Shown here: one piece after another, positions 4,003 through 43,237 of the stretch
Layout of the letters: every line of letters starts with the position of its first letter
Numbering within the stretch: the first letter of the stretch is position 1
Assembly (NCBI GenBank): GCA_023150915.1
Contig: JAKLKA010000016.1
Span: forward strand, 1 to 64,000
Length of the DNA: 64,000 bases
Origin: Polyangiaceae bacterium
GTDB taxonomy: Bacteria; Myxococcota_A; Polyangia; Polyangiales; Polyangiaceae
Direction: 5' to 3'
Program-made: the position numbers and the translations under genes
The notes under the pieces: generated by a model
The model's database searches: none
Seen by the model: the letters and a program-made list of their open reading frames with translations, nothing else
Told to the model about the DNA's origin: nothing

Positions 4003-6441
4003 TCACTGGCACTGTGCCCTGACCACGTACGCTTCCAGGTGTCCGGATTCGTAGTCGCGCCACGAGATGTACCACTGCCCCGGCTGGGTTCCGGGCGCGA
4101 CCGCCGGGTAGGGCTGGATCCCGCCGACTTTCGCCACGCTGCCGCTCGGCTCGATGCCGTCGCGGGTCATGCTCGCGAGCTTGACCCGGTTGGTGTCGAA
4201 GTAAGCCACCATGGCGCCGGAAGGCCCCTGGGCAATGGCCGGTGCCGAGCCGCCCCGCGCGAACTCGCGGTGCCAGTTGATCTGCTGCTTCGTGCGGTCG
4301 AAGACCGCGGCGAACGCCCCGGCCTTGTCGTCGTCCCAGACCAAGAAGCAGTCGTCCTTGCTGCACACGGCCCGAGCCTCGCCGCGCTGCCCGCCGATCG
4401 GGCTGACCGCGGTGAGCTTGCCGATCACCCGGTCTTCGAGCTTCTTCTTTCCCTCGGCCTTCACCCCGGTCAGAAGTGCCGGATCGTTCACCGACACTTC
4501 CAGCAGCATGATGCGCCGCTTCTTGTCACGTTCGAGCGAGAAGGCGATGACCAACGCGCCATCGACCACGGCCAGGCTGGGGCGATTGGCCAGCGCTCCG
4601 TGGCCATCGCGGCCCGAGCCAAAGGCGGTCAGCCGGATGCTCTCGCCCATTGGATCGAGGTCGGCCGAGAGGCGCCTGGCGGCCAGATCGGCCCCGTCTT
4701 CGAAGCTCTCTTCCCACACCGCCCAGTACCCACCGTCTTGTCCCCGGGCGATGGTCGGGAAATATTCTTGCCGTTTGATGGCGCTCAGCCGCCGCGAGGG
4801 CCCGGCAATGCGGCCGTCGGTCTCGAGCGTGCGCACGTACACCCCCGGCTCGCTGCCGCCGTCTTCCCAGAACAACAGGGCGAGCTTGCCCTTGGCATCG
4901 AGCAGCTGGGTGTGGCGGGCCGAGCTGGTCTCGGGGGTGACCAGACGCGCCGGCGAGACGCGCCGCAGCGCGCTGTCGAGCAGCGCCGTGAAGGCCTGTC
5001 GGCGCGCGGTGTCTTGCTGGTTGTCCACCCAGACCACGACCGGCCCGACGGAGGTGACCAGCAGGTCTGGGCGCGAGCTGGGGGTGGTGCGATCGAACGG
5101 TCGTGGCCGGCCGAGGCCGGTGACCTTGCACTTGCCGTCGCCGCCCGGGACGGCGATGACCGCATTGCTGAGGAGCCCCCGCGACACGCCCGAGCCGCCG
5201 GCGTTGAAGGCTTCTTTGAAGGCCACCAGCGCGGCTTCGCCCTTGCCGCTTTCGATCAGCGCCTGCGCTTCCGACACGCTCTTGCCGAAGCCCTCGTTCT
5301 CGAGCGGGCGATCGTAGACCGGTGCCGAGCTGCTGGGCGCCGGCGCCACGCTCGCGCTGGGTGCGGCCGACACGCTGGCCGTGGGGACGGCGGTCGGCAC
5401 GGGCGGATGCAGCACGTAGAACCAGAGCGCATAGCCCCCGAGTGCGACGATCGCGAGCCCCAGCAGCACCCCCACCACGCCCATGCCCCCGCGCTTCGGG
5501 GGGGCGGGCAGGTTGAGCACGTGCTCTGGTCGCCACGACGGGGGCGGCATGCTGGTGGCCGGGGTCAGGGCGTCGGCCAGGGTCTCTGCCAGCTCTTTCG
5601 CGGTCGCGAAGCGCTTCTGCGGATCCCGATCCAGTGCCTTGGCGAACCACGAGTCGAACTGGGGCGGCAGATCGGGGCGAAGCTTCGACGGCTTGGGGAT
5701 CGGCGCGCCGGCGATCTGCGCCAAGATCATCGCCACGCCCTGATCCACGTTCCACACCGTGGTGCCGGTCAGGCACTCGTAGACGATGCAGCCGAGGGCC
5801 CACAGGTCCGAGCGGTGGTCGGTCTCGCCCTGACCCTTGGCCTGCTCGGGGCTCATGTACGCGGGCGTGCCGAAGAGCGCGCCCTCGCGTGTGAGCCGCG
5901 GTGAGGCTGCCTCGCCGGTCTGCTCGTAGAACTTGGCGAGGCCGAAATCCAGGATCTTCACCACCAGCTCGCCCTCGGGCGTCTTGGTGATGAAGATGTT
6001 CTCGGGCTTGAGGTCGCGGTGGATGACCGTCGACTCGTGGGCCTTCTGCAGGCCGCGGGCCGCCTGGGTGATGACTGCCAGGGTGGTGTCCGGGTCGATG
6101 CGGCGGACCCGAGTCATCATGTCGTACAGGCTCTCGCCCTCGAGCAGCTCCATCACCAAAAACGGGCGGCCGTCGTACATCCCCGAGTCGTAGACGTCGC
6201 AGATGTTGGGACTGCGGATTGCGGCGGCGGCCCGGGCCTCGCGCAGGAAGCGCTCGCGCACGATGCGCGACGTCACCAGCTCGGCGGCCAGGATCTTCAC
6301 CGCCACGCGCTTGCCCAGCGTGATGTTCTCGGCCTCGTACACCGTGGCCATGCCACCGCGGCCGATCTCTTTGGTGATACGGAACTTCCCCTCCAGAACG
6401 GTCCCGATGGGGACCTGCGATTTGTTCGGGGGGGATGCCAT
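4003..6441 (-). CDS. Transmembrane Ser/Thr protein kinase with large extracytoplasmic domain
   Basis: About 812 residues from the ATG at 6441. The N-terminal kinase domain (about 20-290) is complete: glycine loop GRGGMATV (27-34), VAVK Lys49, HRDLKPEN (141-148), DFG (165-167) and GTPAYMSPEQ (191-200). A single membrane helix at about 319-344 is followed by a Pro/Ala/Ser linker and some 400 residues outside the membrane. That part contains repeated blocks ending in WVDN, FWED, WEES and VWDD, which suggests a beta-propeller-like ligand-binding domain, although no named domain was matched. The architecture is that of PknB-type receptor kinases common in myxobacteria. It probably heads the operon running through the acetyltransferase and two histidine kinases. 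Confidence 0.93.
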   Translation of the reverse strand: MASPPNKSQVPIGTVLEGKFRITKEIGRGGMATVYEAENITLGKRVAVKILAAELVTSRIVRERFLREARAAAAIRSPNICDVYDSGMYDGRPFLVMELLEGESLYDMMTRVRRIDPDTTLAVITQAARGLQKAHESTVIHRDLKPENIFITKTPEGELVVKILDFGLAKFYEQTGEAASPRLTREGALFGTPAYMSPEQAKGQGETDHRSDLWALGCIVYECLTGTTVWNVDQGVAMILAQIAGAPIPKPSKLRPDLPPQFDSWFAKALDRDPQKRFATAKELAETLADALTPATSMPPPSWRPEHVLNLPAPPKRGGMGVVGVLLGLAIVALGGYALWFYVLHPPVPTAVPTASVSAAPSASVAPAPSSSAPVYDRPLENEGFGKSVSEAQALIESGKGEAALVAFKEAFNAGGSGVSRGLLSNAVIAVPGGDGKCKVTGLGRPRPFDRTTPSSRPDLLVTSVGPVVVWVDNQQDTARRQAFTALLDSALRRVSPARLVTPETSSARHTQLLDAKGKLALLFWEDGGSEPGVYVRTLETDGRIAGPSRRLSAIKRQEYFPTIARGQDGGYWAVWEESFEDGADLAARRLSADLDPMGESIRLTAFGSGRDGHGALANRPSLAVVDGALVIAFSLERDKKRRIMLLEVSVNDPALLTGVKAEGKKKLEDRVIGKLTAVSPIGGQRGEARAVCSKDDCFLVWDDDKAGAFAAVFDRTKQQINWHREFARGGSAPAIAQGPSGAMVAYFDTNRVKLASMTRDGIEPSGSVAKVGGIQPYPAVAPGTQPGQWYISWRDYESGHLEAYVVRAQCQ

Positions 6442-6547
6442 TCGAGTGAGCCGGCGGTCGAGGGGTGCTCGACGCCGCCACGTTAGCAAGGGAGGCTGGG
6501 GAGCGCGAGAAACCACGGGCCAAGAGCCGCGAAAAACCGCGAGATTT

Positions 6548-7549
6548 CTAGGGGCGCGGCAGCAGCGATTCGAGCGGGGTCGGGACCGCGGGCGGGGCAT
6601 TTTCCAGCAGCGGGCCCAGGGGCGCGGCCGAGAGGGTGTGCCAGTAGAGAACGGCCCGGCCCGGGCGCCCCGGCAAACGGACCTCTTCCAGTGCCCGCGC
6701 GAAGGTCTTCGCGGTGTAGGTCGGGTCCAGCCGAAGACCGATGGCCTCGGCGGCCCGGGTCGCGGCGTTGCCCTCGGCGGTGGCGTGCCCGTACCCAGCG
6801 CCCAGGTGCCGGCCATCGATCTCGAGGGTGCGCGCGAGTCGCAGGAGGCCAGCGCCACCGCCCTCGAGACGGGTCGCCGCTCGGGCCAGCGCGAGGGACA
6901 CGGCTCGGCCGAGGGGCGCCGCCACCGCCACCGAGACCCCGACCACTCGGGACCTCAGCCCCTGGCGCAGAACGCCGGCCAGGATGCCGGCGACCGTGCC
7001 GCCCGAGCCGAGCGGGACGACGATGACTTCGGGCTCGGGCAGGGCGCCGTCGCGGATCTGGCGCGCCAGCTCGCCGACCGCTCGGGCGTAGCCGAGGGTG
7101 CCGAGGGCGCTCGAGCCGCCGGCGGGAATGAAGTAGTCCCCGCGGCGCAGCACGGCGGCCACGCCGAGCGGAACGGCGGCCATCGAGCCGACGACGCGGA
7201 CCTCGATCCCGGCGCCCAGCGACGCGCGCAAGGTCGCTTCGGCGTGCTCGGTCCACGGCTGCGGGCAGAGTACCGCGACCACCGGAAGGCCCACGGCCCG
7301 GGCGTAGATCGCCGTCGCCAGCACGTGGTGGCTGCCTCCGGCGCCGGTGGTCACCAGCCGTCGCGCGCCACGCCGCGCCGCATCGGCGAGCACCAGCTCG
7401 AGCTTGCGCACCTTGTTCCCGCCGTACGGCTCGGCCGACACGCCGTCATTCTTCACCCACAGCTCCGCGCCGGCAGTCGAGAGCGCGTCGGCGCGAAACA
7501 CCGGTGTGGGGTAGTGCCCGAGCGTGAGCGGGGCAGGGGGCTGCTTCAT
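6548..7549 (-). CDS. PLP-dependent D-cysteine desulfhydrase / ACC deaminase family enzyme
   Basis: 333 residues, the usual length for this fold-type II family. YGGNKVRKLE near residue 45 carries the lysine expected to form the Schiff base with PLP, GAGGSHH follows, and the phosphate-binding loop is PLGSGGTVAG. Family members break D-cysteine to pyruvate, H2S and ammonia, or deaminate 1-aminocyclopropane-1-carboxylate; the sequence alone does not separate these. It is divergent from pfkA with about 60 bases between the two starts, and lies 106 bases upstream of the kinase gene on the same strand, too far to assume an operon. Confidence 0.88.
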   Translation of the reverse strand: MKQPPAPLTLGHYPTPVFRADALSTAGAELWVKNDGVSAEPYGGNKVRKLELVLADAARRGARRLVTTGAGGSHHVLATAIYARAVGLPVVAVLCPQPWTEHAEATLRASLGAGIEVRVVGSMAAVPLGVAAVLRRGDYFIPAGGSSALGTLGYARAVGELARQIRDGALPEPEVIVVPLGSGGTVAGILAGVLRQGLRSRVVGVSVAVAAPLGRAVSLALARAATRLEGGGAGLLRLARTLEIDGRHLGAGYGHATAEGNAATRAAEAIGLRLDPTYTAKTFARALEEVRLPGRPGRAVLYWHTLSAAPLGPLLENAPPAVPTPLESLLPRP

Positions 7550-40289: not shown

Positions 40290-40470
40290 GATTGCGTGGT
40301 TGCCGGCGCCGTGTTACCCGAACGGCTACCGACACCAAGGGAAGCCGGTGAGAATCCGGCACGGAGCCGCCGCTGTAACTCGGGACGGCCTGGTCGAAGT
40401 AGCCACTGGCGAAAGCTGGGAAGGCGACCAGGCTCAGCGAGAAGTCAGAAGACCTGACCGTCGGGACCCC
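40290..40470 (+). promoter_or_regulatory. Cobalamin (AdoCbl) riboswitch
   Basis: The conserved core is clear: AAGGGAAGCCGGTGAGAATC and CGGCACGGAGCCGCCGCTGTAACT (40337-40380), then GCCACTGG with GCGAAAGCTGGGAAGGCG (40402-40427), and AGTCAGAAGACCTG (40443-40456). In the known class, adenosylcobalamin binding represses the downstream genes. The targets here are the lipoprotein and BtuB-like receptor genes. No other transcript start lies between. Confidence 0.95.
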
Positions 40471-40506
40471 GGAAGCGCCGCCAAGCAGGCGGCGTGAGAT
40501 CCGGGG
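40467..40506 (+). promoter_or_regulatory. Riboswitch expression-platform hairpin
   Basis: CCCCGGA (40467-40473) pairs with TCCGGGG (40500-40506), with an inner GCCGCC/GGCGGC stem around AAGCA. It directly follows the cobalamin-binding core and precedes the GGAGG at 40541 and the ATG at 40551. No U-tract follows, so control by structure change or rho is more likely than intrinsic termination. Confidence 0.6.
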
Positions 40507-40550
40507 AGGGTGATTCACCACAAGGGCGCGCGCCTCGCCCGGAGGTCACG

Positions 40551-41306
40551 ATGACGGATCGAACATGGCTCACGGCTCTCTTCCTCGCGGCGTGCGTGGG
40601 GGGGTGCGGCAGCGACGACTCGGGGTCTGATTCGAAGGCTGGGGGCGGCGGTCACGGCAGCGTCACCTCGCTGGGCGGTGCGGCCGGGGCCGGCAGCGGC
40701 GGCTCGTCTGGGGCCGGCGGCGGTGGCGCAGGCGGCGACGAGAGCTGCCCGCGCTTCGTGAAGAGCTCGCCCAGTCACCAGTTCGGTCCGGGTCAGTCTG
40801 CCGGTCAGCTCCAGTTCCCCGCGCCGATCCTGGGTCCGCCGCGCGGCGCCGGCTCGAGCCAGGGCTCCCTCGACGTGGTCGCGCTGGGCAACGGCGGGCA
40901 GGTGACGCTCGCGTTCGGGCAGACGCGGATCGCGGACGGCCCTGGGCCCGACTTCATCGTCTTCGAGAACGCGTTCTTCGCCGGGGGGGATCCCGAACAG
41001 GTCTTCGCCGAGCTGGCCACGGTCGAGGTCAGCGCCGACGGTCAGAGCTGGACGGCGTTTCCGTGCACCGCCAGCGCGGCGCCCTATGGGGCGTGCGCGG
41101 GCTGGCATCCGGTCCATGCCAATGCCGCCGAGAACTCCATCGACCCGCTCGACCCCGCGGTGGCCGGCGGCGACGCCTACGATCTGGCTGCGATCGGGGT
41201 GGCCGAGGCCCGCTTCGTTCGCATCACCGATCGCGCCGATCTCGAGGGCATGAACGGCGTCTTCGATCTGGACGCGGTCGGCATCGTCAACGCAGCGTGC
41301 CCGTGA
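40551..41306 (+). CDS. B12-regulated surface lipoprotein (LIC13355-like)
   Basis: About 251 residues from the ATG at 40551, with GGAGG five bases ahead. The lipobox FLAAC (Cys15) is a better match than the VGGC at Cys19. A Gly-rich spacer of about 45 residues leads to one compact beta-rich domain containing GGQVTLAFGQTRIADGPGPDF, then FIVFENAFF, VEVSADGQSW, AGWHPVHANAAENSIDPLDP and VGIVNAACP at the end. The DGPGPDFxVFENAF pattern is that of LIC13355-type lipoproteins seen in Leptospira and others. Its stop overlaps the start of btuB, and both lie under the cobalamin riboswitch, so a role in B12 capture at the cell surface is a strong inference. Confidence 0.85.
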   Translation: MTDRTWLTALFLAACVGGCGSDDSGSDSKAGGGGHGSVTSLGGAAGAGSGGSSGAGGGGAGGDESCPRFVKSSPSHQFGPGQSAGQLQFPAPILGPPRGAGSSQGSLDVVALGNGGQVTLAFGQTRIADGPGPDFIVFENAFFAGGDPEQVFAELATVEVSADGQSWTAFPCTASAAPYGACAGWHPVHANAAENSIDPLDPAVAGGDAYDLAAIGVAEARFVRITDRADLEGMNGVFDLDAVGIVNAACP

Positions 41307-43237
41307 CTCGCGGGTGGCTGGTGCTCGCGCTGGCGCTCGCCGGCGGGGTGGCGCGGGCAGAAGAGCCGCCCACCGAGGTGGTGGTCCACGACGACCGCCT
41401 GAGCCGCAGCTCGAAGCGCGAGCCGAGCGCCGCCTCGACCCAGATCCCACGGGCCGAGCTCGAAGCCCCGGGCGCCGCGCTGCCCGACGTGCTCGCGCGC
41501 GTCCCGGGGACGCAGGTGCAGCGGACCGGGGCGAGCTCGGACTTCGCGACCGCGTCGCTGCGCGGCGCGACCAGCGCCCAGACGCCGGTCTATCTGGCGG
41601 GGATCCGGCTGAACGACGACGTGATCGGCGCCGCCGACCTCTCGCAGGTTCCGCTGTGGATGCTCGATCGCGTCGAAGTGTTTCGCGGCACCGCTCCCGA
41701 GGGCAGCGACCGCATGGGGATCGGCGGCGCGGTGCTGCTCGAGCCGCGCTTCCCGCGGCGCTCGACGCTGGGCGCGGGGTTCGGCGCGGGCAGCTTCGGC
41801 GCGCGCTCGCTGTTCGTGGGCGGCGCCGCCGTGGGCGCTGGCTCGGGCGCGCTGGTTGGCCTGCGCCACGAGCGCGCGGACAACGACTACGAATACGTCG
41901 ACGACGCGGGGACCACCGCCAGTGCGGCGGACGACCGCGTGGTGCGGCGCCCGAATGCCGATGCCCGCGCGTGGGACGTGTGGGCCGTGGGCCGGACCCG
42001 CCTCGGGGCGGATGCCAGCGTGGTCACCGTTTTGAACGGTTTTCGCCGCGAGCAGGGCGTGACTGGGCTGGGCGTCATTCCGGCCCAGAGCGCCCGCGCG
42101 CGGGTAGAGCGCACGCTGCTCGGCGTGCGTTCCAGCGTGCCCTGCGCCGAGGGGTGTCGCCTCGAGCTCGCGACCAGCGCGCTGGTTGGCTCACACCAGC
42201 TCGCCGATCCGAAGGGCGAGCTGGGTACGGCCGCGCCGCTCTTGGTGAGCCGCGGCGCGCGCGGCGGTCAGACAGCCCATGCCAGCTGGGACGCGAGCGA
42301 CAGCCTGCGGCTGCGTTTGGGCGGCGGCCAAGAGCTGGAGCTCTTGGCGATCGACCCAGGGCTGCGCGCCCGAAGAGACACGTCGCGGATCGACGGCAGC
42401 GCTCGCCTCGAGCTGGGGCCGCAGCTCTCGCTCTCGCTGGTGGGCGCCGCCGAGCGCCACGCGACCAGCGGCGGTGGTGACGAGCGTGACCTCTTGGCGC
42501 CGGCTGCGCGCGTGGGAGCCGAGCTTCGACTCTCCGAGCAGCTTTCGCTGCTGGCCAACGCCGGCCGCACCACCCGCGTGCCGACCTTGGGTGAGCTGCA
42601 CGGAGTCAGCGCGGTGGTGCGCGGCAATCCGGCGCTGGTGGAAGAGGTCGGCACGTCGGCCGACGTCGGCGCGCGGGCGACGTTGCCGGGTCGCGACCTC
42701 TCGCTCTGGGCCGAGGCGTTCGGTTTCGCGCGGGTCGCGGACGACCTGGTCGCCTATCGCCGCGCCACCTTTGGCACGGTCCGGCCTTACAACGTCGGTC
42801 GGGCGCGGTTCTTGGGGCTCGAGCTGGCCACGGCGGCGCAGGCCTTCCACCACGCCCGCGTCGATCTGGCGCTGACGTTGCTCGACCCGCGCGACATCAG
42901 CGACGACCGCCAGCTGGCCAGCGACTTGCTCCCGTTCCAGTCACGGCTGGTGGGCAGCGGTCGCGTCGAGGTCTTTGCCGAGCGTTGGGCGGGGGCGGAT
43001 CGGGTGGCGCTCGCCGCGGCGGCTCACTATCGCGGCGCGCGGGTGGCGGACCCGGCGGGGCTGGTGGTGATCGATGCCCAGTGGACGCTCGGCGCGGATC
43101 TGTCGGTCTTCGTGCTCGAGCGGCGGCTGGCGTTGCGTGGCGCCGTCGAGAACGCGCTCGACGCTCGTCAGGTCGACACCGTGGGCATGCCGCTGCCGGG
43201 CCGCAGCATCCACGGCAGCGCCGAGCTCTGGTGGTGA
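41303..43237 (+). CDS. btuB: TonB-dependent receptor, predicted vitamin B12 transporter
   Basis: About 644 residues from a GTG at 41303 that overlaps the preceding stop; an ATG far upstream in the same frame would lie inside the lipoprotein gene. A signal peptide ends near VARAEE. A candidate TonB box (EVVVHD) comes about 28 residues in. The plug domain reads ALPDVLARVPGTQVQR, RGATSAQTPVYLAGIRLND and DRVEVFRGTAP. The remaining 500 residues have barrel character, with the last residue Trp (ELWW), and LFVGGAAVG- and VGRTRLGAD-type strands. BtuB assignment rests on fold plus riboswitch. No btuFCD is in the window. Confidence 0.93.
   Translation: MTRGWLVLALALAGGVARAEEPPTEVVVHDDRLSRSSKREPSAASTQIPRAELEAPGAALPDVLARVPGTQVQRTGASSDFATASLRGATSAQTPVYLAGIRLNDDVIGAADLSQVPLWMLDRVEVFRGTAPEGSDRMGIGGAVLLEPRFPRRSTLGAGFGAGSFGARSLFVGGAAVGAGSGALVGLRHERADNDYEYVDDAGTTASAADDRVVRRPNADARAWDVWAVGRTRLGADASVVTVLNGFRREQGVTGLGVIPAQSARARVERTLLGVRSSVPCAEGCRLELATSALVGSHQLADPKGELGTAAPLLVSRGARGGQTAHASWDASDSLRLRLGGGQELELLAIDPGLRARRDTSRIDGSARLELGPQLSLSLVGAAERHATSGGGDERDLLAPAARVGAELRLSEQLSLLANAGRTTRVPTLGELHGVSAVVRGNPALVEEVGTSADVGARATLPGRDLSLWAEAFGFARVADDLVAYRRATFGTVRPYNVGRARFLGLELATAAQAFHHARVDLALTLLDPRDISDDRQLASDLLPFQSRLVGSGRVEVFAERWAGADRVALAAAAHYRGARVADPAGLVVIDAQWTLGADLSVFVLERRLALRGAVENALDARQVDTVGMPLPGRSIHGSAELWW

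Follow-up and report, generated by a model that had tools for sequence, protein, structure and literature searches.

We analysed a window of 64,000 nucleotides from the genome of a Polyangiaceae bacterium (GCA_023150915.1, contig JAKLKA010000016.1), in which a cobalamin riboswitch of family RF00174, a gene for a lipoprotein (P0001) and a gene for a BtuB-like TonB-dependent receptor (P0002) follow one another on the same strand as an operon (Table 1). An earlier note on this DNA had described a riboswitch, a lipoprotein and a TonB receptor joined by a GTGA overlap, all of which were recovered at their positions, and its claim that the lipoprotein is regulated together with the receptor is supported by the cobalamin riboswitch ahead of both genes. 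The aptamer (gathering score of RF00174, 31.5 bits) was found with an E-value of 4.0e-18 when the whole genome was searched, which contains two such sites in all. In the RNA fold of positions 40470-40565 (-45 kcal/mol, z = -2.7 against shuffles), the first hairpin is followed by a stem whose 3' side extends to the Shine-Dalgarno sequence, with three of the five GGAGG bases paired. Because the fragment after the aptamer has no T run and the Shine-Dalgarno is partly paired, the riboswitch is more likely to act on translation than on termination, for which the fold is weak evidence. From the GTGA overlap we infer that the lipoprotein and the receptor may be translationally coupled.

In P0001, the predicted lipobox is directly followed by the acid-rich sequence GSDDSG, and a Gly-rich linker leads to a mostly beta domain. 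The NCBIfam model LIC_13355 (NF033170) matched the protein (E = 1e-13, 51.1 bits) below its curated cut-off of 120 bits; membership of that family by this model was therefore rejected, while the label LIC13355-like given in the earlier note remains fitting. Pfam assigned P0001 to no family and gave no match to DUF4465 (PF14717), and for all 66 members of the homologue alignment A1 it returned two chance-level hits only, again without DUF4465. A search of the PDB sequences with P0001 yielded nothing relevant.

The receptor P0002 contains the Plug (PF07715, 2.4e-14) and TonB_dep_Rec barrel (PF00593, 6.3e-16) families, and its best match of solved structure is E. coli BtuB (5.8e-15, in the N-terminal part only). 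It is called BtuB-like here, and not a curated BtuB, because its score with the TonB-B12 model TIGR01779 (4.4e-27, 94.9 bits) is far under the cut-off of 599.7. The absence of btuFCD nearby had been taken by the earlier note to strengthen a purely outer-membrane role. In agreement with that absence, the only match in the genome to a FecCD (BtuC-type) permease, possibly BtuC, is on a third contig, off that of the window; as an argument the absence is weak, because some relatives have BtuF- or FecCD-type genes beside members of the family.

Table 1. Positions of the operon features in the window and of the propeller gene on contig C147.
Feature	Position	Strand	Basis
Cobalamin riboswitch aptamer RF00174	40290..40476	+	Rfam 15, 74.8 bits, E 1.3e-16, full model 1-189
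Candidate expression platform: hairpin 40475-40495, then stem from 40500	40475..40545	+	RNA fold
Shine-Dalgarno GGAGG of the lipoprotein gene	40541-40545	+	Sequence
BtuH-type, LIC13355-like lipoprotein P0001, 251 amino acids (last base of stop, 41306)	40551..41306	+	ATG 40551, Shine-Dalgarno, lipobox, NF033170 1e-13, AlphaFold2 match to BtuH
Lipoprotein signal peptide, lipobox VGGC (V-G-G-C19), lipidated Cys19 predicted	40551..40607	+	Read by eye
Gly-rich linker, about residues 30-62	40638..40736	+	Sequence
BtuH-type domain, mostly beta, residues 63-251	40737..41303	+	Alignment A1 of 66 homologues; AlphaFold2
Signature DGPGPDFIVFENAF with N140 and F142	40935..40976	+	N in 66/66, F in 62/66 homologues
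GTGA start/stop overlap (receptor GTG start and lipoprotein stop)	41303..41306	+	Sequence
BtuB-like TonB-dependent outer-membrane receptor P0002, 644 amino acids, GTG start	41303..43237	+	Pfam Plug and TonB_dep_Rec; PDB match BtuB
BtuG-like propeller lipoprotein	C147:6798-8114 (= L001 1721-3037)		Model, riboswitch upstream

The lipoprotein domain and BtuH

Residues 59-251 of P0001 were modelled with AlphaFold2 (mean predicted local distance difference test score, pLDDT, 95.8; predicted template modelling score 0.92). The best PDB match by Foldseek was BtuG1 (8blw), but with an E-value of only 2.5e-3 and a poor superposition. When the same candidates were aligned with VIA-align, BtuH2 (7biz, residues 314-592) came first (Z = 13.6, root-mean-square deviation 2.9, 152 aligned residues, 16% identity) and the BtuH domain of BtuG1 (8blw, residues 388-660) second (Z = 13.3), while the best other protein was PAPP-A (Z = 10.0) and the CBM32 and discoidin domains reached about 8-9. 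At the level of sequence, profile A1, built from the 66 homologues with rows from some minus-strand loci left out because their translations contained stops, found L141 at 5.5e-7. This is a Bacteroidota lipoprotein adjoining a propeller-like gene, and it matches 8blw at 2.6e-67 and 7biz at 5.3e-57. Furthermore, profile A2 gave a weak direct match to residues 399-497 of 8blw (E = 0.005), and hhalign aligned A1 with the BtuH set at 96.1% (E = 3.2e-9) over 57 columns. The fold model and the sequence bridge through L141 together indicate that the LIC13355-like domain is homologous to BtuH.

Eight residues of BtuH2 were reported around B12, namely Gln333, Asn399, Phe401, His476, Tyr510, Trp511, Trp577 and Leu578, of which Asn399 contacts the phosphate of B12 and Phe401 lies beside the lower ligand (PMC8941943). 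With one constant offset, the published residue numbers map onto the 7biz sequence, and all eight residue letters agree. Both MAFFT and hhalign placed N140 of P0001 on Asn399 and F142 on Phe401; the former is invariant in the family (66/66) and the latter is present in 62 of the 66 members. When MAFFT was applied to the BtuH and LIC domains in full length, the C-terminal half came out misaligned, so residue claims are limited to the rest. The alignment suggests that the nucleotide-loop side of the B12 site may be common to BtuH2 and the window domain, whereas the tetrapyrrole side must differ from that of BtuH2, if B12 is bound at all.

Natural fusions were also found. In five loci (L053, L079, L092, L096 and L105) a propeller-like part, judged from sequence, is N-terminal to the LIC13355-like domain; Pfam on four of the five and a PDB sequence search with L105 gave no propeller match. 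BtuG1 of B. theta, named BtuGH in another report (PMC12751083), consists of a BtuG propeller and a C-terminal BtuH domain (PMC10404256). In a Bacteroidetes locus, L107, a DUF4465 domain (PF14717, 7e-50; BtuJ1, 4.9e-23) is fused to the LIC13355-like domain behind a riboswitch, and B12 is bound by eight distant DUF4465 members (PMC13398666). The L107 fusion (5089-6762) also bears a type IX secretion tail. At L099 (5854-9246) a single open reading frame of 1130 amino acids spans a BtuH-type lipoprotein and a TonB receptor; it was not counted as a true fusion, because a sequencing slip of a single base where the two genes overlap would look alike.

Linkage to cobalamin riboswitches across genomes

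To a sample of 141 genomes of the phylum we applied the domain profile A1 and the RF00174 search, with a more sensitive RF00174 rerun on 40 genomes; one domain match was counted per genome, leaving aside any further weak match as well as two that were both weak and partial. Same-strand cobalamin riboswitches were present within 8 kilobases (kb) upstream of 60 of the 91 LIC13355-like genes, including one, in G034, whose riboswitch is below the Rfam gathering score. By our own arithmetic, about 0.1 linked genes would be expected by chance, given roughly 1.5-2 riboswitches per genome of ~5-6 megabases. A second set consisted of 77 GenBank loci from several phyla, retrieved with peptides of the window protein and thus weighted to its closer relatives. 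Here a same-strand riboswitch was found upstream in 54 loci, several others being cut by contig ends; in 30, the same strand carried a P0002-family TonB receptor at a distance of up to 5 kb, and in 17 a separate gene of one propeller-lipoprotein (BtuG-like) cluster was nearby. The gene order varies, with the lipoprotein before the receptor, after it, or behind a riboswitch with unrelated neighbours, and this variation together with the spread over phyla argues against simple inherited synteny. The link to B12 is a property of the LIC13355-like family. The earlier note had named a family mostly unlinked to B12 genes or riboswitches as the result that would speak against it, and the counts are the reverse; the B12-capture role that it proposed agrees with this genomic context.

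The other and stronger cobalamin riboswitch of the genome, on contig C147, precedes a lipoprotein whose Gly-rich linker resembles that of P0001. Its model (pLDDT 93.2) matched BtuG structures first (Z up to 25.6, 8bai/8bmx), with many other propellers reaching Z of 22-24, and RF00174 was present in 18 of the 20 loci that carry this BtuG-like gene or its relatives. BtuH-type and BtuG-type lipoproteins occur in one operon at L034, L035, L040 and L050. On sequence and model, we read the present genome as having the two lipoproteins separated, which elsewhere share an operon. In a relative, G035, six matches to the BtuG-like propeller were detected on contigs C133, C174 and C529, four of them on one contig.

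Besides these genes, two groups of proteins without Pfam match recur at the loci. Small lipoproteins of cluster 5 stand beside or just before the BtuH-type gene, behind a riboswitch, at several loci (L071 5132-5926; also L054, L058, L068, L074 and L080) and are a candidate for a further B12-uptake protein. The protein of cluster 4, encoded between the riboswitch and the BtuH-type gene in Acidobacteria-type loci (L097 4796-5857; also L087, L090, L094, L099, L101 and L104), is another such candidate. Divergent pairs of cobalamin riboswitches, back to back and ~100-200 bases apart, were seen at L040 (5561-5944), L046 (4980-5460), L049 (1665-2205) and L009 (2289-2672). In Sorangium cellulosum (L038 6922-9826) a second cobalamin riboswitch lies just downstream of the BtuH-type gene, ahead of the gene for the large subunit of ribonucleotide reductase. 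At L065, L070, L073 and L083 the BtuH-type gene is duplicated in tandem, with as many as three consecutive copies.

A putative B12 uptake unit and its alternatives

Taken together, we consider it quite probable that the operon is an outer-membrane uptake unit for B12 (cobamides), in which a shortened and divergent BtuH-type capture lipoprotein feeds a BtuB-like receptor. At low cellular cobalamin, the riboswitch would let the mRNA be translated. The lipoprotein, lipidated at Cys19 and carried on its Gly-rich tether, would be displayed at the cell surface, on the outer membrane, where its C-terminal BtuH-type domain would bind cobamides, with the invariant Asn of FENAF contacting the nucleotide-loop phosphate as Asn399 of BtuH2 does, to judge from the alignment. 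It could in this way raise the local concentration of B12 and pass it on for TonB-driven import to the BtuB-like receptor, which the GTGA overlap would cause to be made in step; the BtuG-like propeller lipoprotein of C147 would probably be the lid of the receptor. It has been put forward that BtuH possibly loads BtuBG (PMC10404256), and by analogy we propose that the window lipoprotein loads its receptor.

Several results weigh against this reading. The general fold is common to the CBM32 and discoidin domains, and fold alone does not show function. Profile A1 gave no direct match to the PDB sequences, and the hhalign match covers only 57 of 205 columns. The BtuH2 contacts His476, Tyr510 and Trp511 fall in segments that have no counterpart in the window domain, and Gln333, Trp577 and Leu578 did not align reliably, leaving only Asn399 and Phe401 in common. 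In the phylum sample, 31 of the 91 family genes have no same-strand riboswitch within 8 kb upstream. Besides, the one studied namesake, LIC_13355 of Leptospira, was reported as a laminin and plasminogen binder (PMC11891782).

Alternatively, the lipoprotein could be an accessory under B12 control that binds no B12 itself, whether it serves the receptor or the BtuG-like lid as a docking or structural partner or is a protein related to vesicles, as BtuL is. No B12 binding was detected for BtuL and BtuK2, both lipoproteins encoded in B12 operons of B. theta (PMC12751083), and the tetrapyrrole contacts of BtuH2 are absent here. However, the Asn at the position of the phosphate contact does not vary in the family, and many members stand alone behind a riboswitch with no receptor gene adjacent, as a free binder could; we regard such a non-binding role as unlikely.

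Even less probable is an origin of the capture lipoprotein independent of BtuG and BtuH, which was the version of the earlier note. The strong linkage to B12 genes, the missing Pfam family, the lack of a direct PDB sequence match with A1 and the fact that most ligand contacts of BtuH2 are not common are in its favour. Against it, the fold match to BtuH is well above all others, the sequences are bridged by L141, with the A2 match to 8blw (weak) and the 96% of hhalign on the same side, and the propeller fusions are of the same kind as BtuG1. Because the predicted fold and the sequence bridge tie the domain to the already described BtuH, the word 'independent' is rejected.

A carbohydrate- or matrix-binding adhesin of CBM32/discoidin type, such as LIC_13355 of Leptospira was proposed to be, under B12 control for another reason, is very improbable: such domains are among the structural matches and LIC_13355 binds laminin and plasminogen in vitro, but the BtuH matches are clearly better, the associations with riboswitch, receptor, propeller and DUF4465 in several phyla would be unexplained, and the Leptospira protein was produced insoluble and then refolded (both observations on LIC_13355, PMC11891782).

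The wider family and comparison with known systems

With an uptake unit of BtuH type as the preferred reading of the window, we lean slightly towards the wider view that the LIC13355-like proteins of Myxococcota, Acidobacteria, Planctomycetes, Bacteroidota/Chlorobi and other groups form a second, large branch within the BtuH superfamily, whose members bind cobamides, perhaps ones other than B12, with a tetrapyrrole pocket of their own. The gut-bacterial mode of surface B12 capture is probably more widespread than thought. If the view is true, BtuG/BtuH-type capture would be general among Gram-negative bacteria rather than a speciality of gut Bacteroides, and LIC_13355 of Leptospira, at present classed with the adhesins, may be a BtuH-type ligand-binding protein. 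The extension of the B12-capture role to Leptospira is itself unsupported; in L. interrogans, two cobalamin riboswitches were reported, upstream of btuB and LIC20135, and not of LIC13355 (PMC3953431). A new question is nevertheless raised about a surface protein now described as an adhesin.

In the literature searched, BtuG, BtuH, BtuJ and BtuK were studied in gut Bacteroides, and only DUF4465 was traced to other phyla. The search of the open-access literature listed no report of BtuH-type proteins outside Bacteroidota and none treating BtuH and Leptospira together, subscription papers being outside the search. What is new here is a family with no entry in Pfam, found in several other phyla along with BtuG-like propeller lipoproteins, that predicted fold, sequence and operon context connect with BtuH. 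The family offers a ready set of soluble domains for tests of B12 or cobamide binding, and it suggests what many genes without an assigned role probably do.

Among the known systems, the LIC_13355 family (NF033170) shares with P0001 the lipoprotein character and a core of 76 residues, but P0001 scores 51 bits against the cut-off of 120 and the Leptospira gene is not known to be linked to B12, its product being described as a binder of laminin and plasminogen. Like E. coli BtuB, its best solved match, P0002 is a TonB receptor, here behind a cobalamin riboswitch; unlike a curated BtuB, it remains below the cut-offs, and the sequence match is limited to the N-terminal plug part. BtuJ and the other DUF4465 proteins (PF14717) resemble the lipoprotein proposed here in that they are lipoproteins of jelly-roll fold that bind B12 and are encoded in B12 operons, and both domains are joined in one natural fusion (L107), but they belong to another sequence family, to which P0001 has no match. 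Relatives of the window protein combine a propeller-like part and the domain in the same order as BtuG1/BtuGH (8blw), also with an adjacent receptor gene, whereas no propeller is present in the window and the BtuG-like gene follows another riboswitch on a different contig. The closest comparison is with BtuH2 of B. thetaiotaomicron (7biz), also a lipoprotein encoded with a receptor in a B12 operon, with a similar predicted fold of the binding domain and a GNAF/ENAF motif that carries the phosphate-contact Asn. However, the window domain has ~190 residues against ~270 in BtuH2, the protein lacks PKD domains and the segments of His476, Tyr510 and Trp511, the sequence identity is very low, and LIC13355-like proteins occur in Myxococcota and other phyla. 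Because of its length, the absent segments, the lack of PKD domains and its occurrence in other phyla, we regard the window protein as a new variant of the BtuH kind.

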